A DNA stretch of 25,147 nt from a virus. A model generated the notes under the pieces. That model ran no database searches and was not told where the DNA came from. It saw only the letters and a list, made by a program, of their open reading frames with translations. The DNA lies in the IMG/VR virus record IMGVR_UViG_3300024062_000061, positions 1 through 25,147 of that record; one strand, given 5' to 3'. Positions 2,861 through 23,154 of this stretch are shown here, one piece after another; position 1 is the first letter of the stretch, and the number at the start of each line of letters is the position of its first letter. The position numbers and the translations under genes were made by a program.

Positions 2861-4072
2861 TTATATTGCCTGATAGGTTAATTCACATATATTACCTAAT
2901 AATGCATCTTGAAGTTCTAACTTACCTGATCTTCTGTTACCTACATATTTATTGCTATAATGATAATAATCTGTTTTACCTAAACTTGGTAAAGTCTTAT
3001 GAACAAAACCTGTTGTCTCAGCAGTAGTCATATATTCAACTTTTCTTTCTGTATGAAAGTGCCCTGTAAATAAAGTTCTATTAATAGTTGCTCCCCATTG
3101 TTTAGGATATTCTGTTGCATATACTAATGGTGTATTTTTACTTGGTTTATCTCCATGTTCAAATGCATTAAAATTATTACCCCATACATGAACTTTTCTT
3201 TCTTCATATTTAATATCCCAAGTAATTTCATCACACTCTATAGACTTTGATAATGCATGAGCTAAATGAAAAGAAGATAATCTATCATGATTACCAGGTA
3301 TATATACTACAACTAATTCTTTACAAAAACTTTTAATATAATTAATACCCCAATGTAATGCATCAAATGCTTGAACATATGCTTCGGTTGATGTCATACA
3401 ATTATCTAAAGGAGTACCACTTGTTGTTGTACCATTAAATGTATCCATATTAATTAAATCTCCACCAACAACAAAATACATCTTTTCTATATAATGAGAT
3501 GGTACAGCTCTATTTAATAAATTAATTAAAGTATCTTCAAAATCTTTATCTATAGTTTCATTACCTTCTTTACCAAAATGTATATCTTGTAAAGACATAA
3601 CACCACACACTGTATGTGCATTTTTTCTTTTATCTAATTCAACTTTTGGTATCTTATAAGTTTTTGGTTTCCAGTTTTCTAATAATTTTTCAAGATTACT
3701 TTCTGTAGTATCTTTTACTTTTGATACTAAAGCTGAAACTCTCCAATGATCTCCCATTTGTTTATTCCAATATTGGGAAAGCTTCCACTCTTTTGTATCA
3801 ATACTTAAAAGTTTTATAATTTCTTCTGCTGACTTTGGTTCTGTAGATGATGTAGCAGCTATAGTTTTTTCACCTTTTTCTAAATTTACTGCTTCAGTAA
3901 TACCTGAGTCAGCATCCATTTTTCCAAAAAACTTTCTTTTTTGTTTTTTGCTTTTTCTGATTTCATTTCTCAACTTAACATATTCTGATTCAGATATTCC
4001 AAGTTTATCTGCACAATATGCAACAGACTTTTTCCACTTAAATGTTTTGATAATTTCTTCCTTAATATTCAT
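2861..4072 (-). CDS. Calcineurin-like metallophosphoesterase with N-terminal HTH-like segment (403 aa)
   Basis: The five metal-binding motifs of the calcineurin-like phosphoesterase superfamily are present in order: D163-x-H165 (SLQDIHFG), G204-D205-x-x-N208 (VVGGDLINMD), G260-N261-H262-D263 (IPGNHDRL), H306-G-D (FEHGDKP) and G337-H338-x-H340 (FTGHFHTE). The enzyme should therefore cleave a phosphomono- or phosphodiester using two metal ions; the substrate is unknown. Residues 1-45 (WKKSVAYCADKLGISESEY, then a Lys-rich stretch) resemble a helix-turn-helix with a basic tail, so a nucleic-acid target is plausible. Residues 60-150 look like a linker. The gene lies alone between a terminator and the tail-ring genes. 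Such enzymes are known within crAss-like structural modules, but I do not know whether they enter the virion. Confidence 0.92.
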   Translation of the reverse strand: MNIKEEIIKTFKWKKSVAYCADKLGISESEYVKLRNEIRKSKKQKRKFFGKMDADSGITEAVNLEKGEKTIAATSSTEPKSAEEIIKLLSIDTKEWKLSQYWNKQMGDHWRVSALVSKVKDTTESNLEKLLENWKPKTYKIPKVELDKRKNAHTVCGVMSLQDIHFGKEGNETIDKDFEDTLINLLNRAVPSHYIEKMYFVVGGDLINMDTFNGTTTSGTPLDNCMTSTEAYVQAFDALHWGINYIKSFCKELVVVYIPGNHDRLSSFHLAHALSKSIECDEITWDIKYEERKVHVWGNNFNAFEHGDKPSKNTPLVYATEYPKQWGATINRTLFTGHFHTERKVEYMTTAETTGFVHKTLPSLGKTDYYHYSNKYVGNRRSGKLELQDALLGNICELTYQAI

Positions 4073-4121
4073 AAGATTTTGTATAAAAGTTTTGTAAAAA
4101 TATATTTATTTTTTTAATAAG

Positions 4122-4152
4122 AAAAAAAAAGACTGAGTTTCCCCAGTCTTTT
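4122..4152 (-). terminator. Intrinsic terminator after the 186-aa gene
   Basis: Arms 4127-4135 (aaaagactg) and 4144-4152 (cagtctttt) pair perfectly around an 8-base loop. On the minus strand the stem is followed by a run of T (plus-strand A at 4122-4130). It ends the unit that contains the 735-aa and 186-aa genes, before the phosphoesterase gene. Confidence 0.85.
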
Positions 4153-4197
4153 CCAACGTTTGTGATAGAAAACCAACAAACCACCACTTGTTGTTTC

Positions 4198-4758
4198 TTA
4201 TGCTGCTAATGTTGTAAACAAAATTTCTATAGGTTTACAAGAAGCGGAATTATTATTATCTACAACTTTAACTTTATAAGCTGTATCAGCTACTAAATTA
4301 GTTATTGTAAAGTTATTAGTTGTAGTTACAATTGGTATTGGATTTGCAAGTGTCCATCCTGAAGGTGCTACTTGAGTATCATAATATATATTAATACCTG
4401 TACTAGAACTCCATATACCATCCCAAATAATATTTGCTGTACTTGATGCAATAACACCTGTATACACATTATAAGGATCGTGTTGTAAATCTTCAGAAGT
4501 ACATGCTCCTAATCCATTTGATAATATCATTGCAAATTTTTGAATAATAGAATCCAATCTTTCACCAGTATTTATTTTTAATAATGATGCTGGATCACCA
4601 ATTTGAAAAGATGCACCACAATAACTTACACACTCTGTGCATTGCACCTCATCACATCTTTCACTACCTACACTACAATCAGTATATGTACACGGTGTTG
4701 ATAAAGCTGTATCTTCACAACCACATTTATTACTACATTTAGAACAATTACAAGCCAT
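4198..4758 (-). CDS. Cys-rich / FN3-type virion protein (186 aa)
   Basis: Residues 1-48 are packed with Cys (MACNCSKCSNKCGCED, then pairs at SVGSERC, VQCTEC, SYC), a pattern that could bind metal or form disulfides. Residues 48-85 hold a GDxL-like helix (KINTGERLDSIIQKFAMILS). The C-terminal 85 residues form a beta domain ending in the FN3-like strands NFTITNLVADTAYKVKVVD and PIEILFTT. I recall this Cys-rich, helix, FN3 plan from surface proteins of crAss-like and related Bacteroidota phages. The same middle motif occurs in the 735-aa protein encoded just upstream (gap 29 bases), so the two probably share a docking mode. It is likely a short decoration or fibre-associated protein; direct proof is lacking. 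The next feature downstream is a terminator. Confidence 0.7.
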   Translation of the reverse strand: MACNCSKCSNKCGCEDTALSTPCTYTDCSVGSERCDEVQCTECVSYCGASFQIGDPASLLKINTGERLDSIIQKFAMILSNGLGACTSEDLQHDPYNVYTGVIASSTANIIWDGIWSSSTGINIYYDTQVAPSGWTLANPIPIVTTTNNFTITNLVADTAYKVKVVDNNNSASCKPIEILFTTLAA

Positions 4759-4787: not shown

Positions 4788-6995
4788 TTAACATATAGCT
4801 AGAAGAGCGTTATTTAAGTCAACATAATCAGGATTTACACTAAATGTACCTCCAGTTGCTACTGCAAAGTCAGCCCATGGAGTTGTTGTTACTCCGCCTC
4901 CATCCGTATAAGTTACAGCTGCACCATCACCTAGCACAATTGCTTTAATACCATCTATTAAACATTGCTGTTGTAATGCTGCTAATTCAGCTACAGATGT
5001 TGCATCAAATACCCCAGTAGGTCCACTTGGTAATTCACTAGTTACAATCACAATAACTTTTGATGCTGTTGGTCTAAACGCATCAACAAATCCTGAAATT
5101 GCAGATGCTGCAAGTGTTCCTGTAGGTTGTGTACCAGCAACACCAGCTCCTAATGGCCAATCAACTGTATCTAGTTTATTCAACTGTGTATCAAATGTTG
5201 CAGCATTATTAGTTTGGAACATTTCAACAGCAGTTACATAAGCATATATTGATGGTGTTGCTGGAAATGGAGCTATAATTTTTTGAACCGCTGGCAAAGC
5301 TGTATACTCTACAGAAGAATTATAATTAGGCGTAGCACTACTATCTTGATCAGCAATTCCTAATGCAATTCTGTAATCATTTACTCCAGATAAAGTAGCT
5401 ATATTAGCAGATATAGCCGGTGCATTTGTTTTGTAATCAGCAATTATAGGTTGCATTAAATTAGCATCACAATAATCTATTAATATTGCTACATCCATTC
5501 CTTGATCACATGCAATAAATGCAAAGTTTGTGGTAAATGATGTAGTGTTAGTACAAACAACTGTTTTACCACCTTTAGTAACTGTTACTCTTACTGTATA
5601 TGTTGTACCAGGTGTTAAACCTGCAAATGTATTTGTTACAGTAACGCCTGGATTATTTTGAGTATATGTATCAATTATTACACCATTACTATCTAAAATA
5701 TCTATTACATATACTGCAGTAGTACCTATTAAGTTTGTAAAGTCTACTGTTGCCTCTTCTGTAGTTACCCCTGTTACATTTATAATTGCAGGACATGGGA
5801 CAATACCTGGTACTGTTCCTGCTGCAACATTACTACACGTATCAGATCCATTTGTAACACAAAATGCTACAGATGTTGTAAGATCTTGTGAAGTATTTAA
5901 TGCTGCAGTAGAAATATTTATACCAGCAGCATTACTTTGTAATGAGCTTACATTTACGGTACTTGTTATTGCTGCACCAAGTGCATCTGTAATAGTAACA
6001 ACAGTACTTCCTGCACAATCATTAAATACAGCAGGAATACTTGAAGATGTAAAATCAAAGTTTAATGTATCAATTTCACCAGATGTATTAATTACACCAT
6101 TTGCAACATACCCAAATGTTACAGCATCACAACCTGATGGACAACAGTTAAGTTGAATATTTTGTATTGCCGTATACATATCATCTATAACAACCCAAGC
6201 ATTTTGAAAACTTTCAGATAAAGTGCTTGGAGAAGAATTCCATCCTGTAATAGATCCATATGTTACTGCATTATTAGTTAATGTAGTATTTGAACTTACA
6301 ATTACTGTTTGACTTATTGCTGAGTTAATTGCTGCTGGTAAACCTACAGCATTTTCTAATGCACAAAAACGTGCTTCTATAGCAAGTACTAAAACTGAAA
6401 CATCTGTTAATACACTGGGTAATATACATGTAGGAATAATTTGTTTTTCTACTACAACACCTGAACATGGTAATACACATGCTTCAAGAATAGCTATTCT
6501 ATCTCCATAAGAAGTTAATGTAGACTGAATAGATGATATTGTAGTTAATATATCACAAACCTTATTTGCTATTAATGTTGCAAATAAATCAAGTCTTAGT
6601 TGTGTTACTGGATTCCCACCTGCATCATTATACTGAAGACAGAGAGGTAATGTCATTATAGGAAGGTTATCTTGTACATAATCTTCAGGAGGTAAATTAC
6701 TTCCTGAATCTGCACAAATAGAATTAACCATTTCCTGTAAAACAGGAACTAATGTAGTTGGAGTTGTACCTGGAATATTTAAACATGTTAGGTCTAACCC
6801 ATCAAGATTAGGATTTGCGGTTACACCGCTTGTAATTAAATTACATACCTCAGTGGCTAATTTATATGTTACTTCGCTTATAGTATCTCCATTACAAAGA
6901 TCTATACAACTAATATCTGGACCTTGCCATATAACACAATTAGATGAAATACTATCACATCCATTTGTCATATTACTTGAATTACTTGGAATCAT
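4788..6995 (-). CDS. Large virion surface protein with FN3 and vWA-like domains (735 aa)
   Basis: The N-terminus (residues 10-55) carries the anchor-like pattern CVIWQGPDISC plus GDTISEVTYKLATEVC, and a second helix of the same type sits at 123-150 (LRLDLFATLIANKVCDIL). A Ser/Thr-rich beta region follows (180-395). Residues about 400-490 form an FN3 domain (TVDFTNL through LTPGTTYTVRVTVT to TTSFTT). Residues 495-735 look like a von Willebrand A domain: hydrophobic strand MDVAILIDYC, helix, strand KVIVIVTSELPSG, strand GIKAIVLGDG. The MIDAS is degenerate: D507-Y-C-D-A replaces DxSxS, and TSE replaces the usual TDG. No signal peptide or membrane segment is seen. It probably decorates the virion and contacts host or matrix proteins; the ligand is unknown. 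It heads its own unit after the terminator at 7104-7142. Confidence 0.75.
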   Translation of the reverse strand: MIPSNSSNMTNGCDSISSNCVIWQGPDISCIDLCNGDTISEVTYKLATEVCNLITSGVTANPNLDGLDLTCLNIPGTTPTTLVPVLQEMVNSICADSGSNLPPEDYVQDNLPIMTLPLCLQYNDAGGNPVTQLRLDLFATLIANKVCDILTTISSIQSTLTSYGDRIAILEACVLPCSGVVVEKQIIPTCILPSVLTDVSVLVLAIEARFCALENAVGLPAAINSAISQTVIVSSNTTLTNNAVTYGSITGWNSSPSTLSESFQNAWVVIDDMYTAIQNIQLNCCPSGCDAVTFGYVANGVINTSGEIDTLNFDFTSSSIPAVFNDCAGSTVVTITDALGAAITSTVNVSSLQSNAAGINISTAALNTSQDLTTSVAFCVTNGSDTCSNVAAGTVPGIVPCPAIINVTGVTTEEATVDFTNLIGTTAVYVIDILDSNGVIIDTYTQNNPGVTVTNTFAGLTPGTTYTVRVTVTKGGKTVVCTNTTSFTTNFAFIACDQGMDVAILIDYCDANLMQPIIADYKTNAPAISANIATLSGVNDYRIALGIADQDSSATPNYNSSVEYTALPAVQKIIAPFPATPSIYAYVTAVEMFQTNNAATFDTQLNKLDTVDWPLGAGVAGTQPTGTLAASAISGFVDAFRPTASKVIVIVTSELPSGPTGVFDATSVAELAALQQQCLIDGIKAIVLGDGAAVTYTDGGGVTTTPWADFAVATGGTFSVNPDYVDLNNALLAIC

Positions 6996-7165: not shown

Positions 7166-7303
7166 TTATTTTTTTACTTCTTCTTCTTTTGGAAATACTT
7201 CTTTTAAAGCATCAATTATTGTTGCTGCATCATTTAAACTATAGCATCCTTTTTGGATTGCTAAGTCTATTGCGTTTACTATTATTTGTATCTTATCTTG
7301 CAT
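7166..7303 (-). CDS. Small conserved protein (45 aa) at the end of the fibre unit
   Basis: ATG at 7303 opens a 45-residue frame, MQDKIQIIVNAIDLAIQKGC at the start and FPKEEEVKK at the end, stop at 7166-7168. It is predicted mostly helical with a turn at QKGCYSLNDA, and it is acidic to mixed in charge. I recall similar tiny proteins next to fibre-associated genes in crAss-like phages, function unknown; they may be fibre assembly factors or minor virion parts. The frame is supported by its position 23 bases after the 112-aa gene and just before a terminator. A partial, non-intact copy of its middle lies at 8809-8839, which shows that this gene has moved or been duplicated with fibre cassettes. 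Confidence 0.7.
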   Translation of the reverse strand: MQDKIQIIVNAIDLAIQKGCYSLNDAATIIDALKEVFPKEEEVKK

Positions 7304-7326
7304 AATGCAAATATAATTATTTTATT

Positions 7327-7665
7327 TTAACTCCAAGGTAAAGGCTTAACAACAGGAACTACAGGAGGATTACTTTTATTATCAACCTGTGAAGCTAAAG
7401 ACTTTTCTATAGACTCAACACCTTCTGTACCTAATGATGATTTAATCCATCCAACAACTTGCTCTTCTGTAAGGTCAGAATAAGCAACAAATCCTTCTTC
7501 TTCTTTTGGCTCAATTACAATAGAACCTAAGCTTGAAGATTTATATTCTTTTCCATCAACCTCTTCTGTACAATTTACTCTGTAAAGTATAGTTGTAACA
7601 AAATCTGTTTCATTTACTTCGTCTACTGTTTGTAAACTTTTTATTTTCCAAGTATAATTTTTCAT
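7327..7665 (-). CDS. Fibre-associated conserved protein, paralogue 2 (112 aa)
   Basis: This 112-residue protein begins with beta-rich sequence (MKNYTWKIKSLQTVDEVNET), contains the motif FVAYSDLTEEQVVGWIKSSL at about residues 58-77, and ends in NPP...PLPWS. It is clearly related to the 111-aa protein at 10383-10718: both have MKxYxW, F-V-x-Y-x-D-L-T, VVGW(I/V)K, and the NPPV...PLPW ending. From memory the pattern matches a small phage family found near tail or fibre genes (DUF7936-like); function unknown, perhaps a fibre chaperone or adaptor. The gene starts one base after the stop of the 375-aa fibre, so the two are probably translated together. Confidence 0.75.
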   Translation of the reverse strand: MKNYTWKIKSLQTVDEVNETDFVTTILYRVNCTEEVDGKEYKSSSLGSIVIEPKEEEGFVAYSDLTEEQVVGWIKSSLGTEGVESIEKSLASQVDNKSNPPVVPVVKPLPWS

Positions 7666-7666
7666 T

Positions 7667-8794
7667 TTATGCTAATAATATTTTTTCTGCTACTCCATTT
7701 ATAATTACATCCCAAGTTTTTGTCTGAGCTACTGATGCTGTCGCTACAGCTCCTGCGTTATAAGAAGATGACCCTACAACAAACTGATTGCTTGCTGTTG
7801 CTGTTGCCTCCCTACCTAGTAGTACAGAATTACTAAAGTTACCTGTATTAAGATTGTGACCTAATCCTGAATTACCGTCAGCAGTTTGTGTTCCAAATTC
7901 ATCTCCTCCGCAAATAGTATTAAAAGAACCTGTTGTAAGTTCATATAAAGAACCCGACCCAATTGCAATATTAGCATTTCCTCCGTCCAAATTAAACATT
8001 GTTACAACTCCTAGTGCAGTATTACCACTACCGCTACCGTCACCCATTGAATTAAATCCAACTGAAGTATTTGCACTACCTGTTGCATTAAAACCCTGTG
8101 AATAATATCCCACAGCAGTATTTTCTGAACCACTAGAAATAGCAAGTAAAGCATCTTTACCTACAGCTACATTTTGTGATGCACTTGAGTTAAAAACAGA
8201 TTTATGTGCATTAGAACCTACGGCAGTATTCTCTCCTCCATACCAAGCCTCATTACCTGAACGGTATCCTATATATGTATTGTCAGATGTTCTTGAGTTA
8301 TATCCTGTATAAGCACCAAGTGCTGTGTTTCTACTGTCGTTGTTAAATAAAAAAGAAAGAAAACCTATAGCGGTATTTTCAACACCTGTTGTTAATTGTT
8401 GCAATGCTGCCACACCTATACCTATATTATTCCCTCCTGATATAACGTCTCTTAATGATTCTGCTCCAACACCAACATTTGAATTTGCTATAGTACTATT
8501 TTTTAACACTTGAAACCCTAAAGCTGTATTAAGAGTACCTGATGTGTTAGATTCAAATGCTTCAAATCCGTAAACTGTATTGTTTGTGGTTGGTCCTACT
8601 TTTGGTACAACATAGTTTGTAACAAAATCACTTGCTGTAATAAGACTTACTTTATCAGGAGGTGTAATTCCTGATACAGGAATAGATGATGTTACTTTTT
8701 TACTACCTAGTGCAATTATATCTGCATCTTTTGCATCTGTAATAATCTCTTTTCTTTTAAAGAGACCCATTATATCTGTTAATATCTGATTCAT
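7667..8794 (-). CDS. Head- or tail-fibre protein with YadA-like beta-roll (375 aa)
   Basis: Residues 1-65 (MNQILTDIMGLFKRKEII, VSGITPPDKVSLITASDFVTNYV) form an N-terminal module shared with the 242-aa protein and typical, as I recall, of crAss-like fibre proteins that dock on the virion. Residues about 75-330 are repeats of the NTAxGxxxL type (NTALGFQVL, NIGIGVAAL, NTAIGFLSF, NTAVGYYSQ, NTSVGFNSM, NIAIGSGSL), the pattern of the trimeric autotransporter (YadA) head beta-roll. The last 60 residues (VVGSSSYNAGAV, TWDVIINGVAEKILLA) resemble the end of the 591-aa fibre. It is probably a trimeric receptor- or glycan-binding fibre. No S74 chaperone domain is seen. It sits between a gene relic and the 112-aa paralogue. 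Confidence 0.8.
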   Translation of the reverse strand: MNQILTDIMGLFKRKEIITDAKDADIIALGSKKVTSSIPVSGITPPDKVSLITASDFVTNYVVPKVGPTTNNTVYGFEAFESNTSGTLNTALGFQVLKNSTIANSNVGVGAESLRDVISGGNNIGIGVAALQQLTTGVENTAIGFLSFLFNNDSRNTALGAYTGYNSRTSDNTYIGYRSGNEAWYGGENTAVGSNAHKSVFNSSASQNVAVGKDALLAISSGSENTAVGYYSQGFNATGSANTSVGFNSMGDGSGSGNTALGVVTMFNLDGGNANIAIGSGSLYELTTGSFNTICGGDEFGTQTADGNSGLGHNLNTGNFSNSVLLGREATATASNQFVVGSSSYNAGAVATASVAQTKTWDVIINGVAEKILLA

Positions 8795-8808
8795 TTTATT
8801 TTATTATT

Positions 8809-8839
8809 TTTAAACTGTAGTATCCTTTTTGGATTGCTA
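8809..8839 (-). pseudogene. Relic of the 45-aa small gene, 31-bp repeat of 7233-7263
   Basis: These 31 bases match 7233-7263 with two differences. Read on the minus strand in the same frame they encode LAIQKGYYSL, the equivalent of LAIQKGCYSL in the intact 45-aa protein, and the frame then runs into a stop after a few residues. The 5' half of the gene is missing because the repeat begins at the stop codon of the 247-aa gene, whose TAG (8837-8839) is made from relic sequence. This is best read as the scar of a cassette exchange. Confidence 0.75.
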
Positions 8840-9580
8840 GTTAAGTAGGACAATGTTAAAAGGTGCATCAGTAAGATCTAATTTAAAAACACCTTCAGGT
8901 GAATTTAATGTTTCTTCCCATTTCCCCGTCAACCATTCTAGTGGTTTTTTAGCATCAGAAGCAGTTAGTATTGAATATAACTGATTTGCAAACATAGTTT
9001 CTGCTTTTAATGTAAGTTGTGTTGGTGAGTCTATAGAAACAACAGTAGACTCATTTCCATTTGAAAGATTTGTTACAACATCTCCAGGCTGTAATCCTGC
9101 TGCAACAAAGTCAGCATTAGTATCAATAAGTTTATTAGTATCTTCTGAAGTAACTTCTCCTCTAGCAACAATTGGTCCTAATGGTTTAAAAATTCTATAG
9201 TCTATCCCTGCTCCATTATCACGTAAAGTATTAATATCACTAATTACTATTGATGTTGCATTAGTTACACTTACAACATGAAGACTGATTTGACCTTGAC
9301 CAACAGAAACAAAATCTCCTGGCTCAATTCCACCAGCAATAAAATCAGCATTACTATCAGTAAGTATAGCAGTTGTATTTAGAAATTCAGTTGTTGTTCC
9401 ACTAGCAGCTAAGTCTCCTGCTATATCCATATTAAAACCACTAAAACTTTTAGTAATACTACTTGCAGTTATTCTATATATAGAATAGGAACTAAAAAGT
9501 GAACTTATTGAGCTAATTTCTCTTAAAGAATCTGGATGTCCAGGTGTAGTTGATGGTATGCTAAAATATTTTTTATTCAT
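8837..9580 (-). CDS. Fibre-locus protein with two copies of a beta module (247 aa)
   Basis: Residues 1-60 are Ser-rich (FSIPSTTPGHPDSLREISS) without a recognised domain. Two related modules follow, at about 62-132 (AILTDSNADFIAGGIEPGDF...VVSVTNATSIVI) and 142-207 (KLIDTNADFVAAGLQPGDVV...VVSIDSPTQLTL). A third copy is in the 242-aa protein encoded upstream. The last 35 residues (WLTGKWEETLNS...FNIVLLN) have no match that I recognise. The protein lacks the MNQILTD anchor, so it may be the distal partner of the 242-aa protein, or the C-terminal part of a once longer fibre. Its stop codon lies inside a relic of the 45-aa gene, so its 3' end may have been set by recombination. Confidence 0.65.
   Translation of the reverse strand: MNKKYFSIPSTTPGHPDSLREISSISSLFSSYSIYRITASSITKSFSGFNMDIAGDLAASGTTTEFLNTTAILTDSNADFIAGGIEPGDFVSVGQGQISLHVVSVTNATSIVISDINTLRDNGAGIDYRIFKPLGPIVARGEVTSEDTNKLIDTNADFVAAGLQPGDVVTNLSNGNESTVVSIDSPTQLTLKAETMFANQLYSILTASDAKKPLEWLTGKWEETLNSPEGVFKLDLTDAPFNIVLLN
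9012..9036 (-). repeat. Direct repeat within the DxNADF modules (partner 9806-9830)
   Basis: Twenty-five bases match 9806-9830 with two differences. They encode the SxDSPTQLT strand in the 247-aa and 242-aa proteins. DNA-level identity this high, above that of the surrounding modules, suggests recent copying or recombination between the two genes. Confidence 0.7.
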
Positions 9581-9627
9581 TTTTCTTTTTATTATAAGAT
9601 TATAATTATTTATATATAGTAAGATAT

Positions 9628-10356
9628 TTAAAAATCAATACTCTTTATGCTAACAGAGAATTCTACATCTATTATATTACTAGTATTTTTATTAGAAAAC
9701 GCTGTAGCTAAAGCGTCATTAATTGCTTTTTGAACAGGTAAACTTTTATCAGGATGATAAATAGTGTAATCACCAGTACTACCCACAGCAAAGGGTTTCC
9801 CTATAGTAAGCTGTGTTGGTGAGTCTACAGATAATACAAATGCACTTACTCCAGTATTATCACTAAAAAAAACATCTCCAACTTGTACCCCTGATGCAAC
9901 AAAATCAACGTTAGTATCAGTAATTATATCTGGATTACCAGCATCAAAACTAGTTGTTGTACTGTCAATAATATTAGGAATAGGATGACTAATTTCTCTA
10001 CTTATATTCCATGCATAACTAAGTTGAGTTTTTTGGTAAGCCCCCAAAGCACCACTTGATTCAAGGTCTGTAACTGTACTAAACCTACCTAAATAATTTG
10101 CTGAAATTATAACCGTACCGTTATCTTCTGTTTGAAATCTCAAAAACTTAGGTGCTACACCTAAAGTAGTTCCAACATAATTTTGAGCAAAATCTTCTGC
10201 TGTAATAAGTGTCATTGCCTCAGATGGCTTTGGTCCTGATATTCCAAGAGAACCTGACCTTGTGTCTGCTAATGGAATTAAATCTCCATTTTTTCCTGTT
10301 TTAACAACTTTGTTTCTTTTAAAAAGACCTAGTATGTCTGTTAATATTTGATTCAT
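9628..10356 (-). CDS. Fibre protein with virion-docking N-terminus (242 aa)
   Basis: Residues 1-62 (MNQILTDILGLFKRNKVV, DLIPLA, SGPKPSEAMTLITAEDFAQN) match the N-terminal module of the 375-aa fibre, which marks it as a virion-docked protein of the same class. The C-terminal part differs: it lacks the YadA-like repeats and instead carries one module at about 132-200 (DIITDTNVDFVASGVQVGDV...SVDSPTQLTI) that is also found twice in the 247-aa protein. The final 40 residues are helix then strand (VQKAINDALATAF, VEFSVSIKSIDF). The gene lies 26 bases after the 111-aa gene and 47 bases before the 247-aa gene. It is probably an alternative fibre or a shortened stalk. Confidence 0.7.
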   Translation of the reverse strand: MNQILTDILGLFKRNKVVKTGKNGDLIPLADTRSGSLGISGPKPSEAMTLITAEDFAQNYVGTTLGVAPKFLRFQTEDNGTVIISANYLGRFSTVTDLESSGALGAYQKTQLSYAWNISREISHPIPNIIDSTTTSFDAGNPDIITDTNVDFVASGVQVGDVFFSDNTGVSAFVLSVDSPTQLTIGKPFAVGSTGDYTIYHPDKSLPVQKAINDALATAFSNKNTSNIIDVEFSVSIKSIDF

Positions 10357-10382
10357 AGTTTTATTATATTATTTATTATTTA

Positions 10383-10718
10383 TTACCAAGGTAAAGGTGT
10401 ATTTTCTGGACTTACCGGAGGGTTAATTTGACTATCAATCATACCGCCTACTGATGCTTCTAAATTAGATATATTAATTGTACCTAATTGATTTTTAACC
10501 CATCCTACAACCATTGCATCTGTAAGATCTTTATAAGGTACAAAACTTTCACCTTGTATTATCTCAAATGTTGCTGTATTTGTTAATTCTGCAGTATATG
10601 TAGTCCCACCACTTTCCTCTGTACCTACAACACTATAAATCACATCTACAACATAATTACTTTCTGTTGCAGTATTTATAGTATATAAGTCGGTAACATT
10701 CCAGATGTAACTCTTCAT
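10383..10718 (-). CDS. Fibre-associated conserved protein, paralogue 1 (111 aa)
   Basis: This protein is a paralogue of the 112-aa product of 7327-7665. It begins MKSYIWNVTDLYTI, has FVPYKDLTDAMVVGWVKNQL at about residues 59-78 and ends NPPVSPENTPLPW. The N-terminal half is beta-rich and the second half has one helix followed by a Pro-rich tail. It lies between the 591-aa fibre (gap 53 bases) and the 242-aa fibre. One copy beside each fibre set suggests it works with a particular fibre, for instance as adaptor or folding factor; this is inference, since the family has no known activity that I can name. Confidence 0.75.
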   Translation of the reverse strand: MKSYIWNVTDLYTINTATESNYVVDVIYSVVGTEESGGTTYTAELTNTATFEIIQGESFVPYKDLTDAMVVGWVKNQLGTINISNLEASVGGMIDSQINPPVSPENTPLPW

Positions 10719-10771
10719 ATATTAAATATAATTTATTTTTTTTATTTATACTATTAATATATATAATTTTT

Positions 10772-12547
10772 TTATGCTGCTACTATTGGTATTTTATAGT
10801 CAACACCGTTAATTTTTACTGTCCAAGTTTTATCTGCAGTTATAGTCTCTGTTGTTACTGCGCCTGCGTTATAAGCTGATGAACCTACTACAAATTGATT
10901 ATTTGCTGTTGCTGTGGCTGAACGACCTAATATAACAGATGAGTTGAAATTGCCTGTGTTGGCAGATGTACCTATGGCAACATTATTTGAACCTGTTGTA
11001 TTGTTATATGCTGCTTGATATCCAACTGCTGTATTTTCTGACGCTGTGTTACTATATAATGACTCTCTACCTACTGCTGTGTTTGTACTCCCTGAAACAT
11101 TAAGTCTTAAAGAATTAATACCTACTGCTACGTTATTATTTCCTGTAGTGTTAGTATTTAGAGCATAAGCTCCAAGTGCAGTGTTATAGCTTGCTGTGTT
11201 GTTTTGTAAAGAATTTGTACCAACGGCTGTATTAAATGTTCCTGCTGCGTTACTTATTAAAGCATCTTTACCGTAAGCAGCATTTGTATCTACACCACTT
11301 CCACCTGTTCCATATACGCTACCATCGTCTCTTACTCTAAACAGTTCAGTTGTAGCAGAGTTTTGTACAAGTAGCGCTGCTGTTGCAGACGTTGTGCCAG
11401 ATCCTTTTACGTGTAGTATTGCGCTTGCATCTGCGCTTGTGTTCCCTATAAATAAACCATTGCCTCTACCACTTAAATATAAAGTTCCTAAAGAGCCAGT
11501 CCATTTTATATGGCTTCTATTGTCAACAGCAAACCTCATTTGATTAGACCCGTGGTTTAAGCCTAGCAGATTACTAGAAGTGTTTACTATATCTAATTTG
11601 TCATTAGGACTAGTAATGCCTATTCCTACATTACCGGAGGAAGTAATACGTATCCTTTCGGTATTATCTGTTCCGAGTCTTATAGTACCGGCCTGTCTAT
11701 TATTTATAGTGAAGTCGTTGCTGTTAGAAACTAAAGCTGTTCCGTTTCCTGCTCCTACACCTGTTGTACTATTTGTAAATTTTAATTCAGATGATGTTGT
11801 AGCATTAATATGTAGACCTGTACCTCCGGATTGTAGAGCAGGACTATCTGTACCTATACCTACATTACCGGAAGAATCAATAACCATCCTTTCGCCTCCT
11901 CCGGTGAAGAATTTCATATCATTTGTGGAGTGAGCGTATGTTATTCTACCTACATCTCCGTCCTGCGGATCACCAAATTTAATAGATTGAGTTTGAGAAT
12001 TAGCAGATAGTATTTGGATTGATGGTGCTGATCCTTGTTCTATTATTAAAGTACCATTTGCTACAGCGGTTGCTCCTGAGTTGGATCCTTTTATATGTGT
12101 TTTAGCTAAAGGACTAGCTGTACCTATACCAACGTTAGTTCCATTATCAAAAACAATGCTATCACCTATAGCACTAGAGCTAGTGAATTTAGATAAATAG
12201 TTTGTAGTGCCTGTTCCAGTTACATCACCTGTTGGTAATGGACCTAGTGTACCATCACCTAAAACAACTTGAGAGCTAGTACCAGCACCTGTAACTGAAA
12301 GTGTTCCTGAACCAGTTATTGGAGAATTAGTAACTGAAAATGCTGTTGGCATAGATAAACCAACACTAGTTACTGTTCCTGGTGAACCAACTGAAGACCA
12401 TGAAGTACCATCATAAAGTTGAAGACCTTTACTATTAGTATTATAATAAAGTTGCCCTTCTCTTGATCTATTTGGTGGGCTATCCCTAGGATCTATTATT
12501 GGTTGTTTTTGGAGATTTTCAGTAGTTGATAAATATCTTATAGCCAT
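10772..12547 (-). CDS. Long fibre protein with GIGT and YadA-like repeats (591 aa)
   Basis: The N-terminus (residues 1-55) includes REGQLYYNTNSKGLQLYDGTSW, a motif common at the base of phage fibres. A Gly/Ser/Thr-rich stalk follows, then three segments of the VGIGTxSP type (near 138, 228 and 308) preceded by ERMVID or ERIRIT strands, typical of fibres that often end in S74 peptidase domains. Residues about 415-540 are NTAVGxxSL beta-roll repeats as in YadA heads. The C-terminus (QFVVGSSAYNAGAV, TWTVKINGVDYKIPI) is shared with the 375-aa fibre. No S74 chaperone domain is present, so folding must rely on other means. Some stretches (11620-11900) use more CCG, GGA and CGT-type codons than the neighbours, which hints at transfer from another source. 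Likely role: host or glycan binding. Confidence 0.82.
   Translation of the reverse strand: MAIRYLSTTENLQKQPIIDPRDSPPNRSREGQLYYNTNSKGLQLYDGTSWSSVGSPGTVTSVGLSMPTAFSVTNSPITGSGTLSVTGAGTSSQVVLGDGTLGPLPTGDVTGTGTTNYLSKFTSSSAIGDSIVFDNGTNVGIGTASPLAKTHIKGSNSGATAVANGTLIIEQGSAPSIQILSANSQTQSIKFGDPQDGDVGRITYAHSTNDMKFFTGGGERMVIDSSGNVGIGTDSPALQSGGTGLHINATTSSELKFTNSTTGVGAGNGTALVSNSNDFTINNRQAGTIRLGTDNTERIRITSSGNVGIGITSPNDKLDIVNTSSNLLGLNHGSNQMRFAVDNRSHIKWTGSLGTLYLSGRGNGLFIGNTSADASAILHVKGSGTTSATAALLVQNSATTELFRVRDDGSVYGTGGSGVDTNAAYGKDALISNAAGTFNTAVGTNSLQNNTASYNTALGAYALNTNTTGNNNVAVGINSLRLNVSGSTNTAVGRESLYSNTASENTAVGYQAAYNNTTGSNNVAIGTSANTGNFNSSVILGRSATATANNQFVVGSSAYNAGAVTTETITADKTWTVKINGVDYKIPIVAA
11619..11660 (-). 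repeat. Internal repeat of the 591-aa fibre gene (partner 11853-11894)
   Basis: Forty-two bases resemble 11853-11894 at most positions, sharing cctacattaccgga and atcctttcg blocks. They encode the ER(M/I)xI-xSSGNVGIGT repeat unit of the fibre stalk. Such repeats allow unequal crossing-over that changes fibre length. Confidence 0.7.
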
Positions 12548-12571
12548 ACCTTTAAAATTAATTAATATATT

Positions 12572-12799
12572 TTAACATGATTCTACTTTTTCAATAGAAA
12601 CACCTGGTACACTACTATCAATTACTGTATTATTACTGGTACTACTTTGCCAATCACACAAATATTTATCTATTGATGCACTAACTAAATCACTAAAACA
12701 ACATGGAGTAATACCAAGTTTTTTTTCTCTGTAAACAACATTTACTGCATTAGCAAATTTTTGTTGAATATCTATTTCTTTCTTTAGTGCATTATCCAT
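12572..12799 (-). CDS. Small protein of unknown function (75 aa)
   Basis: A 75-residue frame starts MDNALKKEIDIQQKFANAVN and continues with a helix, the segment GITPCCFSDLVSASIDKYLCDW, and a Ser/Val-rich tail ending in ESC. It is not a family I can name. The frame is supported by tight packing, with 13 bases after the Cys-rich 45-aa gene and 24 bases before the 591-aa fibre, and by the absence of any competing frame. Four Cys residues continue the trend of this region. It may be a minor virion part or an assembly factor for the fibre that follows. Confidence 0.55.
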   Translation of the reverse strand: MDNALKKEIDIQQKFANAVNVVYREKKLGITPCCFSDLVSASIDKYLCDWQSSTSNNTVIDSSVPGVSIEKVESC

Positions 12800-13677: not shown

Positions 13678-14862
13678 TTATACAGTAATTGTTTCTACTG
13701 CAACGTTACTAGCAGTTGCTAAATCTGCCATAAGAAGATCCATTTTTCCTGTAGTAGTAGTATCAGTAGAATCTACATAAATCTTGTATATATACTGATC
13801 ATTATCAAATACTCCAGATGGATTATTGTATCTAGGTACTACGTGTTGAATTATGTATTCAACATAAGTACCAGTTCTATCTACAGCAGCAAGTAAATCA
13901 TCAGACATTTCAATCTCACGAATACGTGCAGAATCAGCATTCCCTTGGTTGTAAGGAGACTGTCTGTAGTTTTCAGATAATAATAAATCTCTAAGTACTG
14001 TTTCTCCTAATACTTGAGCAGATTTTCCAGTAACAGATGTAGCAACACCACAATCATTACAAGGATCACCAGTTTCATCAAGTAAACTTGGAATAATTGT
14101 TACAGGATCTTTACCATAAAAATCTCTAGTATCAAATGAACAATCTCCAAATTTAGTATCTACATAAGCTCCGATAAAGTTTGCTTCTGCACTTACTTGA
14201 TCTGCAATAGGATCAGTTGAAGGTGTATAAGTACCATCAAGAACTTCTGCAATAGTGTACTGAGTAGTAACACCAGCAACAGTAACATCCATTGCTCCAC
14301 CAGATCTCTCTGCTACAAAAGGAGAAATCAAAGGATCAGCCAATAACATTTTAGAAGCAGTTGCTAAAGCAACAGCTGGATCAATGTAAGTTTGACCGTC
14401 TACACAACATACATTAGCTGAATCACCAATTGCATAAGCATTGTGATTTAAAAAACGTAATGCTGGAGTTCCTTTAACATCCATTCTTACATAAAGAGAT
14501 GTTCCACATGGAACACAATCAGATGCAACAGAAAGAGTAGCAATTGATTGAACAGCAGCTACACCATCTTGTTTAACTAATCTGTTAATAAATTTAGGAT
14601 TGATTCCTTTAGATTTTACAGACTCTTGGTATCCACCATGTCCGGGATTACTTCCAATAGAATCTGAACCATAAAAACTACCTTGTACAAAATATACAAG
14701 ATCATTTGTAGGCAAAACTGCACCAGTTGCAATTGTTTGCCAGTTTGCATCGCTAACAAGACCTGCTTGTCCTGAAGTTAAAGCTGAAGTAGCAACACTA
14801 CCCACATCTTCTACAGAACTAACAACAAAGGTCTTACAAAATGCTGAATTAAATAAAGCCAT
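13678..14862 (-). CDS. crAss-like virion structural candidate, Cys-rich (394 aa)
   Basis: A 394-residue protein starts MALFNSAFCKTFVVSSVEDV and mixes beta strands and loops with a helical segment (ALATASKMLLADPLISPFV). The middle of the sequence has regularly spaced Cys pairs: SDCVPCG, NVCCVDG, GDCSFD, GDPCNDCG. The C-terminal part (EYIIQHVVPRYNNPSGVFDN, YIYKIYVDST) is beta. I recall conserved proteins of this size and start in crAss-like structural modules, where they are taken as virion components, but cannot fix the exact role; an auxiliary capsid or neck protein fits best. The gene has its own promoter-like element upstream and a strong terminator downstream, so it is probably made in quantity, like the capsid protein, with a matching A-rich leader. 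Confidence 0.6.
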   Translation of the reverse strand: MALFNSAFCKTFVVSSVEDVGSVATSALTSGQAGLVSDANWQTIATGAVLPTNDLVYFVQGSFYGSDSIGSNPGHGGYQESVKSKGINPKFINRLVKQDGVAAVQSIATLSVASDCVPCGTSLYVRMDVKGTPALRFLNHNAYAIGDSANVCCVDGQTYIDPAVALATASKMLLADPLISPFVAERSGGAMDVTVAGVTTQYTIAEVLDGTYTPSTDPIADQVSAEANFIGAYVDTKFGDCSFDTRDFYGKDPVTIIPSLLDETGDPCNDCGVATSVTGKSAQVLGETVLRDLLLSENYRQSPYNQGNADSARIREIEMSDDLLAAVDRTGTYVEYIIQHVVPRYNNPSGVFDNDQYIYKIYVDSTDTTTTGKMDLLMADLATASNVAVETITV

Positions 14863-17156: not shown

Positions 17157-17203
17157 AATAAATTGGTTTGTTTAAATATTTAATAATTATTGTTAATTCA
17201 AAT

Positions 17204-17219
17204 GTGCATATATATGCAC
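17204..17219. promoter_or_regulatory. 16-bp perfect palindrome, possible operator
   Basis: GTGCATATATATGCAC reads the same on both strands. It lies 48 bases before the ATG of the 338-aa gene in an AT-rich leader. Its GC-containing ends are unusual here, which fits a dimeric repressor or activator site better than chance AT repeats. No regulator is seen nearby. Confidence 0.4.
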
Positions 17220-17240
17220 TTTATTAATATTAATATTTCT

Positions 17241-17263
17241 ATAGCCAAGATTATCTTGACTAT
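17241..17263 (-). other. Stem-loop in the capsid / 338-aa gene interval
   Basis: On the minus strand the RNA can form a 10-bp stem (auagucaaga with ucuuggcuau, one G-U pair) with a 3-base loop. It is not followed by a T run, so it is not a normal terminator. It might be an RNA-processing site or a stabiliser of a downstream 5' end. Confidence 0.4.
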
Positions 17264-17298
17264 GGTTATTTAAATTAGATAACTATTTTTAAAAGGTT

Positions 17299-17333
17299 AA
17301 AAAAAAGGGAGGAAGTTTTAACCGCCTCCCTTT
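17299..17333 (-). terminator. Intrinsic terminator of the major capsid gene
   Basis: Arms 17304-17312 (aaagggagg) and 17325-17333 (cctcccttt) pair perfectly around a 12-base loop; on the minus strand a T run follows (plus-strand A from 17299). It starts 12 bases after the capsid stop codon. Confidence 0.9.
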
Positions 17334-17345
17334 AAATTATTATTC

Positions 17346-18965
17346 TTAGAATGATCCTCCAGTTACTGGGTTTCTCATTACAATCTTAAGAACTTTAGTT
17401 GGATCTTTAACCCAAATTGCAGGCATAGTCTGCGACATCATAACTCTGTAACCATTAAAGTTACCAGTTGATGAAAATCCTTGAGTTCTTCCCATGTAGT
17501 CCATAGTACCATTTTGGTAGAACCACTTAAGTTGATTATCCCAAGAAAGTTTCAACAAGTGAATGTTGTCGTTTCCTTCATCTGTAACATCAAAGATAAT
17601 AAAGCTATAAGAACTTAAAGGACGACCATCAATCAATGGATTCTCTATGTCATTAGTGTTTAAATTATCAAATGCAGGGTTAAGAACAAACTTAACGTTA
17701 GCAAGGAAAGGAATAGTAAAGCTTGTATAAGCAAAACCGAAATCAAGATCCATACCTTGTCCTGTTACTGCACCAATGTCAGAAGCATTTTGAACTAATC
17801 CAGAACCATATACTTCATCAGCAATAGCTTTGTTAATTAGTTGCATACCACCAATACCAGTTTGTACAACAAGTGATCTTTGTGGATCCGGACCTTTAAA
17901 TTCAACTTTTCCTTGATAGAAATTATAAAGTTCAGATTTGAACATATCAAGAGTGAAAGAAGATTTGTTGTATACTCTCTTGAAAGAGTTATCCAACTGA
18001 GACCAAAGTCCTACAGATAATCTAACGTCATCTGGACCATCTTGCTTGATTCTACCTCCCTTACCCCACATTAGGTAAGTTTCAATGTCAGTAGCAATTT
18101 TTGAAAGGTGAGCAGCTTCCATGTTTGTAATGAAAGTTTTAGTAAGAGTACCATTTTCAAATGCTTCTCTAGCTCCTGCTTTACCCATGTTTGCAACTAG
18201 TCCTTCAATAGAAGCTACTGATGGATTGTTAGAGTCTTTGTCAAAGTTTCTCCAAATCTCAGTTACTGGAACAGTTCCATCTGCATTCAAACCACCTTTG
18301 ATCATAAGATCAGCACGGCTAGAAATAGAATAATGAACGTGTGCTTCAGCTCCTCCTACAAAGTTGTAGAATTCACGGAATCCAGATCCTGTTGTAATTT
18401 CAGAAAATCTTTCACCATACTCACCACGTGCAGAACCTTTTCTAAAGAATTTAGTTCCAGAAGCTAAGTAAGCATTGTCTAGAGTTGCTGTGTTGTTGTT
18501 GTTTACTAATTGAACTGTGTAAACAAATCCGTCACCTGCTGGGATAATATCGTCAGCTGTGATGTAAAGTTCTACACCATTGTACTTGTCATAAGTGATA
18601 ATATCACCATGTCCAAATGTTCTCTTAGAAATTTTAATTTGAAATGTTGTTCCATCAATACCTTTTGAAGTATTTCCTGGATCCATGTCTGCCACAATAT
18701 ATGGAAGATCTTGCGCGATAGGGGTTTGCCATTTGTACTCACCACGTGCATTGTCTACTAAAATTGTATTCTTTCCACCAAATGAAGCCATTTGATAAAG
18801 AGGCATTTCAACTTTTTGTGTCATTGCCCATAAATCTACTGGTCCCATATCCATTGGTTCTGCTGAACCAAGCATCTGAGTTAAGTGATAAGAATCAACG
18901 TGAGAACTTGCACTATAGCTAGTGTCTCTTAGGAAAATCCCATTGTTTAATACTGGAGTTGCCAT
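17346..18965 (-). CDS. Major capsid protein, crAss-like (539 aa)
   Basis: The protein begins MATPVLNNGIFLRDTSYSAS and includes EMPLYQMASFGGKNTILVDN, FKISKRTFGHGDIITY-like strands, the Arg/Gly-rich FFRKGSARGEYGERFSEITT and a C-terminal NPVTGGSF. Size and order of segments fit crAss-like major capsid proteins, which have the HK97 fold and build the icosahedral shell. It follows the scaffold-like gene, has its own terminator and an A-rich leader, and its codons are less extremely AT-rich than those of neighbours, all consistent with very high expression. No separate N-terminal delta domain is evident by eye; a scaffold protein is encoded upstream. Identification is by recalled family similarity and position. 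Confidence 0.9.
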   Translation of the reverse strand: MATPVLNNGIFLRDTSYSASSHVDSYHLTQMLGSAEPMDMGPVDLWAMTQKVEMPLYQMASFGGKNTILVDNARGEYKWQTPIAQDLPYIVADMDPGNTSKGIDGTTFQIKISKRTFGHGDIITYDKYNGVELYITADDIIPAGDGFVYTVQLVNNNNTATLDNAYLASGTKFFRKGSARGEYGERFSEITTGSGFREFYNFVGGAEAHVHYSISSRADLMIKGGLNADGTVPVTEIWRNFDKDSNNPSVASIEGLVANMGKAGAREAFENGTLTKTFITNMEAAHLSKIATDIETYLMWGKGGRIKQDGPDDVRLSVGLWSQLDNSFKRVYNKSSFTLDMFKSELYNFYQGKVEFKGPDPQRSLVVQTGIGGMQLINKAIADEVYGSGLVQNASDIGAVTGQGMDLDFGFAYTSFTIPFLANVKFVLNPAFDNLNTNDIENPLIDGRPLSSYSFIIFDVTDEGNDNIHLLKLSWDNQLKWFYQNGTMDYMGRTQGFSSTGNFNGYRVMMSQTMPAIWVKDPTKVLKIVMRNPVTGGSF

Positions 18966-20400: not shown

Positions 20401-23154
20401 CTATGATTTTTTATCTTTAGAAGACTTGACATCATATTTATTTTTATTTTCTCTAGCTATCTCAAGATTTGTATTTGCAATCTGTAAATCAGCAGCAATT
20501 TTTTGTTTCTGAACATCTGCTTTAGAACGCTCTACTGTATTTCTAGTAGCCATCTCATCACGTTTAATATTCATTTGTTCTCTATATCTAGTAGATTCTT
20601 GAATATCTTTCATTGACTCTCTATAATCACTAATCTGATTCTGATTAATATCAGCTTGTGCAGCATATCCTGCAGATCTTATTTCTGCAATTGTTATATC
20701 TTTCTGACGTTCAAGTTCAGCATCTCTTTGTTCAACTTCAAGTTTCATTCTTGCTTCTTCAGCTTGTTGTTGAAGTTGAGCTTCTTGCATCTCACGTTGT
20801 TGCTGCATATCTTGAGTTCTTTGCTGAATCATTTTTTGTTCAGCATCTTTAAGAATATCACTTACTTCTGCAATATTATCAGATTTAATAATGTTACCTA
20901 ATTCATATATAGATGCACCAGTAGTATTATTAGTTAATGCCATTTGCTTTAACTGTTCTAATACAGCTCTATGATTTGTTTTAGATGTTACAAATACATT
21001 AAAGTCTCTTAATAAAAGATCAGTACCATTTATAACAAAATTTACTTTTTCTGCTTCTGTAGTAATATAATTCAATCTAATACTTGGATTAGTACTCTGA
21101 TAATATTGAGCTAAATCTGTTCTCATTTGATGAACCCTTGGCATTAAATGATCTGAATGCTGTGTAAAATATATTTCTGTTTGTGCATATGATTGTTGCA
21201 TAGCATTAACAACACCAGTAGCAGTTTCAGCAGATACAGCACCACCTAAACGTTGAGGATTAATACCAATAGCATCAAAACATTGTTGTTTGAAATAATT
21301 AGCTAATTGAATACGCGACATTAATCTACCAGTTTGCTCCATGTTAAGAGTCTGATAGTGATTAAAGTTTGTTGCATTTTCTGTATTAGTAATGGAAGTA
21401 TCTAAAGGTAACATCTGAAAATCCTTCATTGCTACATATGCTTTTGCATAATTATTTTTACCCCAGTCTTCACCCATTGAATGTCTTGGTAAAGCATTCT
21501 GATCAAACATAATCACAGTACCAAGCTCATCTACTAAAATATCAGCTATTTGATTATTAACCATGTTGTATCCAACTTGGTATGCTTTCATCAAATCAAC
21601 TAATGATGTTGATCTTGTATTTCTATCTGAAAATACTCTTCCTTCTACAGGTAACTTACAACCATATAATGATTTATTACCTTTAAATTGGAAAGGCATT
21701 CTTCCAGGAGTCTTTCTATTAATACCTAAATATATTGGTGCAGAGTCTTCGCTTATACTAGATCTCCATGATGTTGGAATGTTTGGTCCAAGTTTAACAC
21801 CACCCCATACTTCATTAATCCAAATCCAATCTATATGCTCTCCATATAATAAGTTTTCTTTATTCTTTTGTTTATATATGGATGTATCATATACACTTTT
21901 TTCAGTTATCTTATAAGTTTCATCAACAATGTCTTGAATAATTTCACCATCTTCTAAAACTCTTATTAAATGACCTATCTTTCTTTGAGTCTTCCAGTAT
22001 ATAGTTGTGACCCTCATTAAGTTACTATCACCATACTGTGCTAAGTCTTCACTTTGATCTAATATTTGATTTATAATATCACCACCAACACTTCTATCAT
22101 TAAAATAATTACTAGTATATTGTCTATACCCTAATGAAGGGCTATCAGTATTCCATGAATGAGATCTAGTTGGATCATAATATGAACCATCATTTTGATA
22201 TCCATTAACTGTATATTGTGCTGATCTTGCAGGATATATTCTTTGTAATGATTCTAATTGTTTCTTATTCATTAAATATCCATATCTATCTACAACATCA
22301 GATACAGTCATTAAATCTATTTTACCTACATAATTAGAATCAGATATATATCTCTGATCTGGAGACTTTTCATAAAATGTTAGTACAGGATTCCATAACT
22401 CTACATCATAATCATCCTCCATCATTCTAAAATGCCAAAACTCTCTATCAGTAATAAGCATATCACGGAAAGCTCTTTCCTCTAACTCAAGCATTCCAAA
22501 CTTTTCTTCATCAACAGCATATTGATGAGAAGCCCATTCTTCAATTGAACTTCTATATGACTTACTAAAATAATCTTCTATTTGAGGTAATGTTTTAATA
22601 TTTTCTGGAGACAACTGTTGAGCAAATTGTTCTGAATTAGGATCAACTCCCATTTGAATCATTTTTGTCAATAATTGTTTTTCTGCATCAGCAAGTAATG
22701 CAGACTCAACTTCAGCCTTTTTAACCTCAAGCATCTCATTGTAAGAAGTATCATCAACAGCTCTAAATTGAACTTTATTATATCTCTTAGAAAACTCTCC
22801 AGATAATACATTTATTACATTAGGGACAATAGGATAAAATTTAAGCTCTAATGCAGAATCTTCTTCTTTTGTTAGAACATCCATTAGATCCTTGTAGTCA
22901 TTATCAGGTTCTACAATATAATCAGATTTATCTATTATACCTTTAGCAAGTTTATAGTTCTTTAATAATCTTCTTGCATTAATTTTTAAAAACTCTATAC
23001 CTTGTAATTCTAACCAGTCTAAATTCCAAGCAGCCCACTCTTCATTTTTTTGTTTATATGGTAAAAACTGAACAGGTTGTGTTAAATTAGAAAAGGTAGG
23101 TCCTTCTGTAGATTTAGCACCATTTTTAAGCTGCATTGCATTAAGTACTTTCAT
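20401..23154 (-). CDS. Portal protein, crAss-like (917 aa)
   Basis: A 917-residue protein lies directly after TerL. The N-terminal part includes FLPYKQKNEEWAAWNLDWLE and LEFLKINARRLLKNY-like helices, followed by the long clip/wing core (MRVTTIYWKTQRKIGHLIRV, EHIDWIWINEVWGGVKLGPN) and the stem-like helix GRLMSRIQLANYFKQQCFDA with GINPQRLGGAVSAETATGVV, a motif common in large phage portals. Residues 771-917 form an uninterrupted Gln/Glu/Lys-rich coiled coil (QQRTQDMQQQREMQEAQLQQ and on), ending in a Lys-rich tail; it probably forms the barrel that extends into the capsid. Twelve copies should make the DNA channel and the docking site for TerL. Identification rests on size, motif pattern and gene order. 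Confidence 0.9.
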   Translation of the reverse strand: MKVLNAMQLKNGAKSTEGPTFSNLTQPVQFLPYKQKNEEWAAWNLDWLELQGIEFLKINARRLLKNYKLAKGIIDKSDYIVEPDNDYKDLMDVLTKEEDSALELKFYPIVPNVINVLSGEFSKRYNKVQFRAVDDTSYNEMLEVKKAEVESALLADAEKQLLTKMIQMGVDPNSEQFAQQLSPENIKTLPQIEDYFSKSYRSSIEEWASHQYAVDEEKFGMLELEERAFRDMLITDREFWHFRMMEDDYDVELWNPVLTFYEKSPDQRYISDSNYVGKIDLMTVSDVVDRYGYLMNKKQLESLQRIYPARSAQYTVNGYQNDGSYYDPTRSHSWNTDSPSLGYRQYTSNYFNDRSVGGDIINQILDQSEDLAQYGDSNLMRVTTIYWKTQRKIGHLIRVLEDGEIIQDIVDETYKITEKSVYDTSIYKQKNKENLLYGEHIDWIWINEVWGGVKLGPNIPTSWRSSISEDSAPIYLGINRKTPGRMPFQFKGNKSLYGCKLPVEGRVFSDRNTRSTSLVDLMKAYQVGYNMVNNQIADILVDELGTVIMFDQNALPRHSMGEDWGKNNYAKAYVAMKDFQMLPLDTSITNTENATNFNHYQTLNMEQTGRLMSRIQLANYFKQQCFDAIGINPQRLGGAVSAETATGVVNAMQQSYAQTEIYFTQHSDHLMPRVHQMRTDLAQYYQSTNPSIRLNYITTEAEKVNFVINGTDLLLRDFNVFVTSKTNHRAVLEQLKQMALTNNTTGASIYELGNIIKSDNIAEVSDILKDAEQKMIQQRTQDMQQQREMQEAQLQQQAEEARMKLEVEQRDAELERQKDITIAEIRSAGYAAQADINQNQISDYRESMKDIQESTRYREQMNIKRDEMATRNTVERSKADVQKQKIAADLQIANTNLEIARENKNKYDVKSSKDKKS

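Follow-up and report, generated by a model that had tools for sequence, protein, structure and literature searches.

A hypervariable slot of fibre genes in a marine crAss-like phage, with probable exchange of fibre distal parts with podoviruses

The window analysed here is a virus record of 25,147 bases (IMGVR_UViG_3300024062_000061). It has a hypervariable slot of fibre genes within a marine crAss-like structural module, and these fibres are mosaics whose distal parts have probably been exchanged with a group of podoviruses. Alignments show that anchors typical of the lineage, termed NQI and MAIRY, are joined to shafts, C-tails and DUF7936 genes that are also present in unrelated Panino/elemo-like podoviruses. 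The unit in common consists of a fibre gene, a DUF7936 gene and a 45-aa ORF (s45), with breaks between anchor and shaft, shaft and C-tail, and tail and DUF7936, and at the s45 borders. Coordinates are given in Table 1.

Table 1. Positions of predicted features in the window
Feature	Position	Strand	Observation
TerL	23176-25059	minus	tblastn matches to crAss-like phages
Portal	20401-23154	minus	phrog_6547; tblastn matches to crAss-like phages
MCP	17346-18965	minus	phrog_11589 (capsid PHROG)
p75 (75 aa)	12572-12799	minus	Same gene is 166 aa in closest relatives
Hypervariable fibre slot	7201-12590	minus	From blastn, a pairwise flank-versus-slot test and a slot survey
f591 fibre	10772-12547	minus	MAIRY-type anchor (12368-12547), repeats, C-tail type A1
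C-tail of f591	10772-11002	minus	End identical to that of L182
d111, DUF7936	10383-10718	minus	Nearest copy found is in L178 (74%)
f242	9628-10356	minus	NQI anchor (10159-10356), one DxNxDF domain (9751-9936)
f247	8837-9580	minus	Two DxNxDF domains (9179-9376, 8957-9139)
s45 relic, 31 nt	8809-8839	minus	94% to 7233-7263; 93.5% to s45 of L163
f375	7667-8794	minus	NQI anchor (8594-8794), repeat shaft, C-tail type A2 (7667-7888)
Block in common with Panino-like podovirus L163/L164	7323-8597	minus	80.9% DNA identity over 1,277 nt
d112, DUF7936	7327-7665	minus	89% identical to L163 copy
s45, 45-aa ORF	7166-7303	minus	92.6% DNA identity to L163 over 163 nt, 7328-7166 (blastn)

A variable slot in a crAss-like backbone

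The minus-strand order of the genes is TerL, portal, a 422-aa gene, MCP, more structural genes, the fibre genes, p735, p186, p403 and more structural genes. The window represents the structural module of a crAss-like phage. Assignment to the Crassvirales is based on the crAss-like matches of TerL and the portal (tblastn) and on the portal and capsid PHROGs, rather than on formal placement in a tree. The best isolate match of the MCP is the cyanophage Leptolyngbya phage Lbo-JY46 (28.6%). The portal agrees with the MCP on this phage (32.4%). Relatives were retrieved with the MCP (80 sequences) and with p403 (80 sequences) as queries, and all related sequences are metagenomic contigs.

In these relatives the backbone genes are kept and the genes between p75 and p735 vary. 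The left boundary of the slot is near codon 70 of p75, a gene that the earlier note does not describe. Contigs L003 and L080, the nearest relatives by the left flank, are 91-96% identical to the window up to position 12590, inside p75, where similarity ends (blastn). From base 7201 to base 1, L082 is 94.4% identical to the window over 7,210 nt (blastn). A pairwise comparison of flank and slot shows 94.5% flank identity between the window and L080 with 2% of the slot alignable, and 92.8% flank identity between the window and L003 with 1% alignable; both contigs stop within their own fibre genes, and these values refer to the first 2.7 kb of the L080 slot and the first 4.7 kb of the L003 slot. 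In the pair L006 and L007, flank identity is 94.0% and 94% of the slot can be aligned, and in L020 and L036 the values are 84.4% and 99%. As the slot can match so little beside flanks of about 94% identity and yet match closely in other pairs, slot and backbone are decoupled. The backbone genes on both sides are conserved together, with the slot content replaced in blocks. Very large ORFs (about 750-1750 aa) occupy the slot in other phages of the crAss-like lineage.

The earlier note had proposed a combinatorial locus that evolves by recombination, as opposed to one gene set kept in fixed order with uniform divergence in related phages. The relatives clearly depart from such a fixed set, and the proposal is supported. 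A Mu-type invertible tail-fibre switch was considered and rejected; all slot genes are on one strand, and the longest inverted repeat is 33 nt at 73%. Neither a reverse transcriptase nor a recombinase was recognised among the window proteins scanned.

Variability is also seen outside the slot. Homologues of p735 (4788-6995) have the N-terminal ~480 aa in common, differ in the remainder, and are of two sizes. In relatives covering both flanks, slots of 3.6-6.6 kb pair with a homologue of 548-753 aa, and nearly empty slots of <400 bp (one of 1.7 kb) pair with homologues of 972-1249 aa. Exceptions among the small slots are homologues of 393 and 444 aa, which lie on shorter contigs and may be truncated. 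Possibly the long form has a tip of its own. The gap between MCP and p338 is a second variable place (17157-17345 in the window; also in L058, L060, L063, L069 and L077). It has a 73-aa ORF in L003 and L080, ORFs of 214-372 aa in other relatives, and a fibre-like ORF of 679 aa in L069. Homologues of p394 (13678-14862) range from ~390 to 600 aa, with BLAST matches that often cover only the N-terminal or only the C-terminal half, an indication of a variable middle part.

Mosaic fibres and their podovirus counterparts

Every similarity that the earlier note had read in the fibre proteins is confirmed by BLASTP. A docking module is common to f242 and f375 (residues 1-62, 48% identity, E 1e-14), repeats and C-terminus are common to f375 and f591 (42% over 184 aa to the C-termini, E 3e-28), and f242 and f247 have the DxNxDF module as one copy versus two (E 5e-9 and 9e-6). 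The gene of 111 or 112 aa noticed beside each set is a DUF7936 gene, which comes after each C-tail fibre. The repeats had been described as YadA-like; this holds for their style but not as a Pfam or PDB sequence match, of which there is none. The top Foldseek matches of the f375 model (pLDDT 63) are trimeric autotransporter adhesins, at non-significant scores, and the f375 profile has no significant PDB sequence match. A search of IMG/VR with f247 found no close relative. In Panino-like phages a MAYQKLQ protein measures 84-86 aa, or 155-157 aa where a DxNxDF domain is inserted (L168 4107-4367; L212 1018-1491; L227 2723-3193; L235 359-826), and the domain therefore also looks like a mobile insertion.

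The MAIRY-type anchor is present in about 50 crAss-like loci. The NQI anchor is present in f242, f375, L082 and, in diverged form, L060 (E 6e-10), and the distal parts attached to it differ; a query with this anchor returned only the contig of L082. Among the loci compared, NQI is found only in crAss-like loci, and a third anchor, ATV, only in Panino-like loci, where it also occurs with other C-termini. MAIRY is mainly crAss-like and is also found in three Panino-like contigs. Anchors are therefore not strictly bound to lineage, although they tend to follow it.

Contigs of the podovirus group were reached through DUF7936 and s45 queries. The capsid protein of L163 is 52% identical to that of Maribacter phage Panino and 47% to those of Flavobacterium elemo phages, and most of the other DUF7936 or s45 contigs, where long enough, have the neighbouring genes of the Panino-like group. 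The block in common with L163 comprises the f375 shaft, C-tail and DUF7936 gene but excludes the f375 anchor (blastn). The match starts right after the docking module, which is NQI in f375 and an unrelated ATV anchor in L163. Outside this block and s45, blastn aligns the window with L163 only at a paralogous segment (10567-10385), at the s45 relic and over a single 50-nt stretch (E 5e-4). The same distal part is thus found in a phage with another anchor and another backbone. It is likely, from these comparisons, that the outer parts of crAss-like fibres have been exchanged with unrelated flavobacterial phages and that the fibres' own attachment ends have been kept; either group may have been the donor.

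The s45 ORF and its relic, which is immediately upstream of f375, are both absent from the description in the first reading. With the relic upstream and the whole s45 downstream, the f375-d112 cassette has s45 on both sides. At the right-hand joint, inside a GAAGAAG stretch, s45 runs at its 3' end into the final codons of a gene that encodes 83 aa in L082. The usual order in the podovirus group is fibre-DUF7936-s45; in L163 it is s45-fibre-DUF7936, and in L165 s45 separates two cassettes. An s45 alignment used as query in a bacterial genome collection gave no match, and no host can therefore be named from prophages. The exchange partners alone point to marine Flavobacteriia as the expected host.

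Within f375 and d112 the best partner changes along the sequence. Where the anchor begins, the nearest sequence is L082, with 76% DNA identity over the first 100 nt; most of the shaft is closest to L163 (58-92%), and the end of the C-tail to L165a/L170/L172 (86-88% versus 69% for L163). In the d112 region L163 is again the nearest (79-97%). The f375-d112 cassette is a three-way mosaic. The C-tail of f591 and its DUF7936 gene likewise have their nearest relatives in different contigs (Table 1).

Subtypes of anchor, tail and DUF7936, which were set by identity, are found in nearly all combinations. All four combinations of tails A2 and A3 with DUF7936 types D1a and D2 occur (win375, L163, L170 and L168), as do all four of anchors ATV1 and ATV2 with tails A2 and A3 (L171, L163, L170 and L168). 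A fixed tie between DUF7936 and C-tail type was dropped on the identity matrices. The beta-tail clade, to which the tail tree gives 100/99 support, is rejected by the DUF7936 data (p 9e-6), as are the A2 (p 1e-84) and A3 tail groups; the groups tested were chosen partly after the identities were seen. The reverse AU tests, on a short C-tail alignment of 228 columns, do not reach significance (p about 0.1 or more), and the distances among tails remain correlated with those among DUF7936 proteins (Mantel r 0.48). Assortment is therefore frequent but not complete.

The DUF7936 partner genes

The d111 and d112 proteins are alike over their full length (BLASTP, E 5e-22). They score 61.5 and 93 bits, respectively, against DUF7936 (PF25590), where the Pfam gathering cutoff is 27. 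The structural model (pLDDT 90) displays three strands and one long helix. The AF2 model matches DUF7936 models in BFVD (best E 5e-9), but a comparison with PDB folds gave nothing at E below 0.1, and the DUF7936 profile has no significant PDB sequence match. No mention of DUF7936 was found in the papers searched, and it is the least explained part of the locus. DUF7936 genes also stand beside the fibres of several phage groups. With considerable reserve, DUF7936 may be regarded as an interchangeable fibre partner in crAss-like phages, Panino-like podoviruses and some cyanophages. It would be a small beta-beta-beta-alpha protein that goes with various fibre C-terminal types, in a fibre-DUF7936-s45 cassette that moves between unrelated phages by border homology.

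A second DUF7936 type, with the motif NYNWNCKTVD (L182 6521-6841, L082 26-364), is common to a Panino-like contig and crAss-like contigs and is a possible case of further exchange across lineages. In Synechococcus phage WH11-B (L265), the annotated hypothetical gene at 3968-4264 is opposite in strand to a DUF7936 frame that adjoins a 'chaperone of endosialidase' fibre; this gene is possibly misannotated.

Proposed explanation and known systems

Fibres of the crassvirus phicrAss001 dock by short N-terminal segments, residues 1-26 of gp22 at the tail hub and residues 1-38 of gp21 and 1-58 of gp29 at the capsid (PMC10172136). By analogy, the anchors of roughly 60 residues would fix the fibres to the crAss-like particle. 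The shaft and C-tail would point outward, and their position and precedent suggest that the distal part meets the host surface. With the anchor docked and the distal part meeting the host, recombination would swap the binding end and leave attachment undisturbed. Short homologous stretches at the borders, in s45 and at the start of DUF7936, may guide the joints. DUF7936 might help to assemble or cap the fibre or might itself be a small fibre component, which is the weakest step of the model.

Duplication within the window's own lineage offers another origin for the two sets, which would have arisen in tandem and diverged there. The anchor and C-tail in common and the two DUF7936 genes in one locus are consistent with this, as are the tandem cassettes of L165 and the s45 copies that flank the f375 cassette as direct repeats. 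However, d111 and d112 are only 39% identical, compared with 74% for d111 and L178 and 89% for d112 and L163. The f591 tail is 85% identical to that of L182 and 59% to that of f375, and the NQI anchors of f242 and f375 are closer to L082 (64% and 60%) than to each other (46%). A recent intragenomic duplication was rejected on these grounds, and duplication within the lineage is very improbable. The earlier note's suggestion that the modules were reshuffled inside one genome is not borne out either. As each paralogue of the window resembles a foreign copy more than it resembles its counterpart, repeated import from a common pool is indicated instead. An assembly artefact, in which crAss-like and podovirus genomes were joined in one contig, could be considered for a 25-kb virus record without a complete genome that has a block common to two lineages. 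The crAss-like backbone continues on both sides of this block, though, and an artefact would take two precise misjoins, of which one would have to be in frame. A fusion of this type (NQI anchor with C-tail, DUF7936 and s45) is also present in a second contig, L082, in a different sequence, and the podovirus matches the block at 81-93% identity rather than at 100%. A chimeric contig was rejected for these reasons and is extremely unlikely.

The place of these proteins on the particle and the role of the partner gene allow other readings as well. PHROG matches fall both in tail fibre families and in 'virion structural protein, head and packaging', and in phicrAss001 short N-terminal segments dock the head fibres gp21 and gp29 as well as the tail fibre gp22, as would suit head (capsid) fibres or decoration proteins. 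This is unlikely in comparison with tail-borne receptor-binding fibres, as block replacement and cross-family exchange are typical of host-recognition modules (PMC10579305) and the very large ORFs in the slot of other phages of the lineage also argue against it. The window fibres, which the earlier note took for alternative receptor- or glycan-binding devices, could equally be parts of one fibre, or head fibres. It is conceivable, though we lean against it, that DUF7936 acts as a folding chaperone specific to the C-tail before it. It directly follows the fibre in every C-tail cassette, as chaperones do in Alteromonas phages A5 and V22 (PMC10579305), but DUF7936 and tail types separate and the model has no significant PDB fold match. 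In MW202484 and in Synechococcus phage S-EIVl, DUF7936 comes after fibre genes that apparently end in their own S74-like chaperone sequence, as read from a DYRLKE motif rather than from a profile test, and in MW202675 it is placed after an annotated tail assembly chaperone. It is therefore doubtful that DUF7936 is the only folding chaperone.

On the preferred reading, mosaic fibres with distal parts exchanged between phage groups, the locus is a natural case, with dense sampling and sub-gene resolution, of exchange between a marine crAss-like lineage and unrelated flavobacterial podoviruses. The exchange suggests shared hosts for this uncultured crAss-like group, and DUF7936 is singled out as a widespread, unstudied, fibre-associated protein that is directly testable.

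Fibres that keep their anchor and exchange the distal part are an established kind (PMC6872550, PMC8262889, PMC10408124). As in the T7/K1F fibres and Klebsiella phage receptor-binding proteins (PMC6872550, PMC8262889), a short N-terminus tied to lineage is kept and the distal part is exchanged. Unlike in those systems, the distal unit here extends to a separate DUF7936 gene downstream and to a 45-aa ORF, there is no recognisable depolymerase, and the exchange spans two unrelated phage groups. The Alteromonas phages A5, V22 and P24 also have a fibre and a downstream partner common to different families that are otherwise dissimilar (PMC10579305). In those phages the partner, a chaperone, has 176-239 aa (DUF4376 in A5 and V22), whereas here it is a DUF7936 protein of about 112 aa, and partner and tail are separable by recombination. 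Tail spikes shared across Crassvirales families that infect one host (PMC10569736) are similar in that host-recognition genes depart from the phage tree; that sharing is within the Crassvirales, whereas here it crosses the boundary of the order and can be followed down to sub-gene modules. Fibres of zeta crAss-like phages diversified by a DGR (PMC12386605) are another instance of crassvirus fibre variability, but the DGR makes point changes at adenines, whereas here whole modules are exchanged. The locus is a new, well-resolved case of a known strategy, fibres with conserved anchors and exchanged tips. Less expected are the presence of DUF7936 as partner, the fact that it can be separated from the tail, and an exchange that extends from crAss-like phages to unrelated podoviruses.
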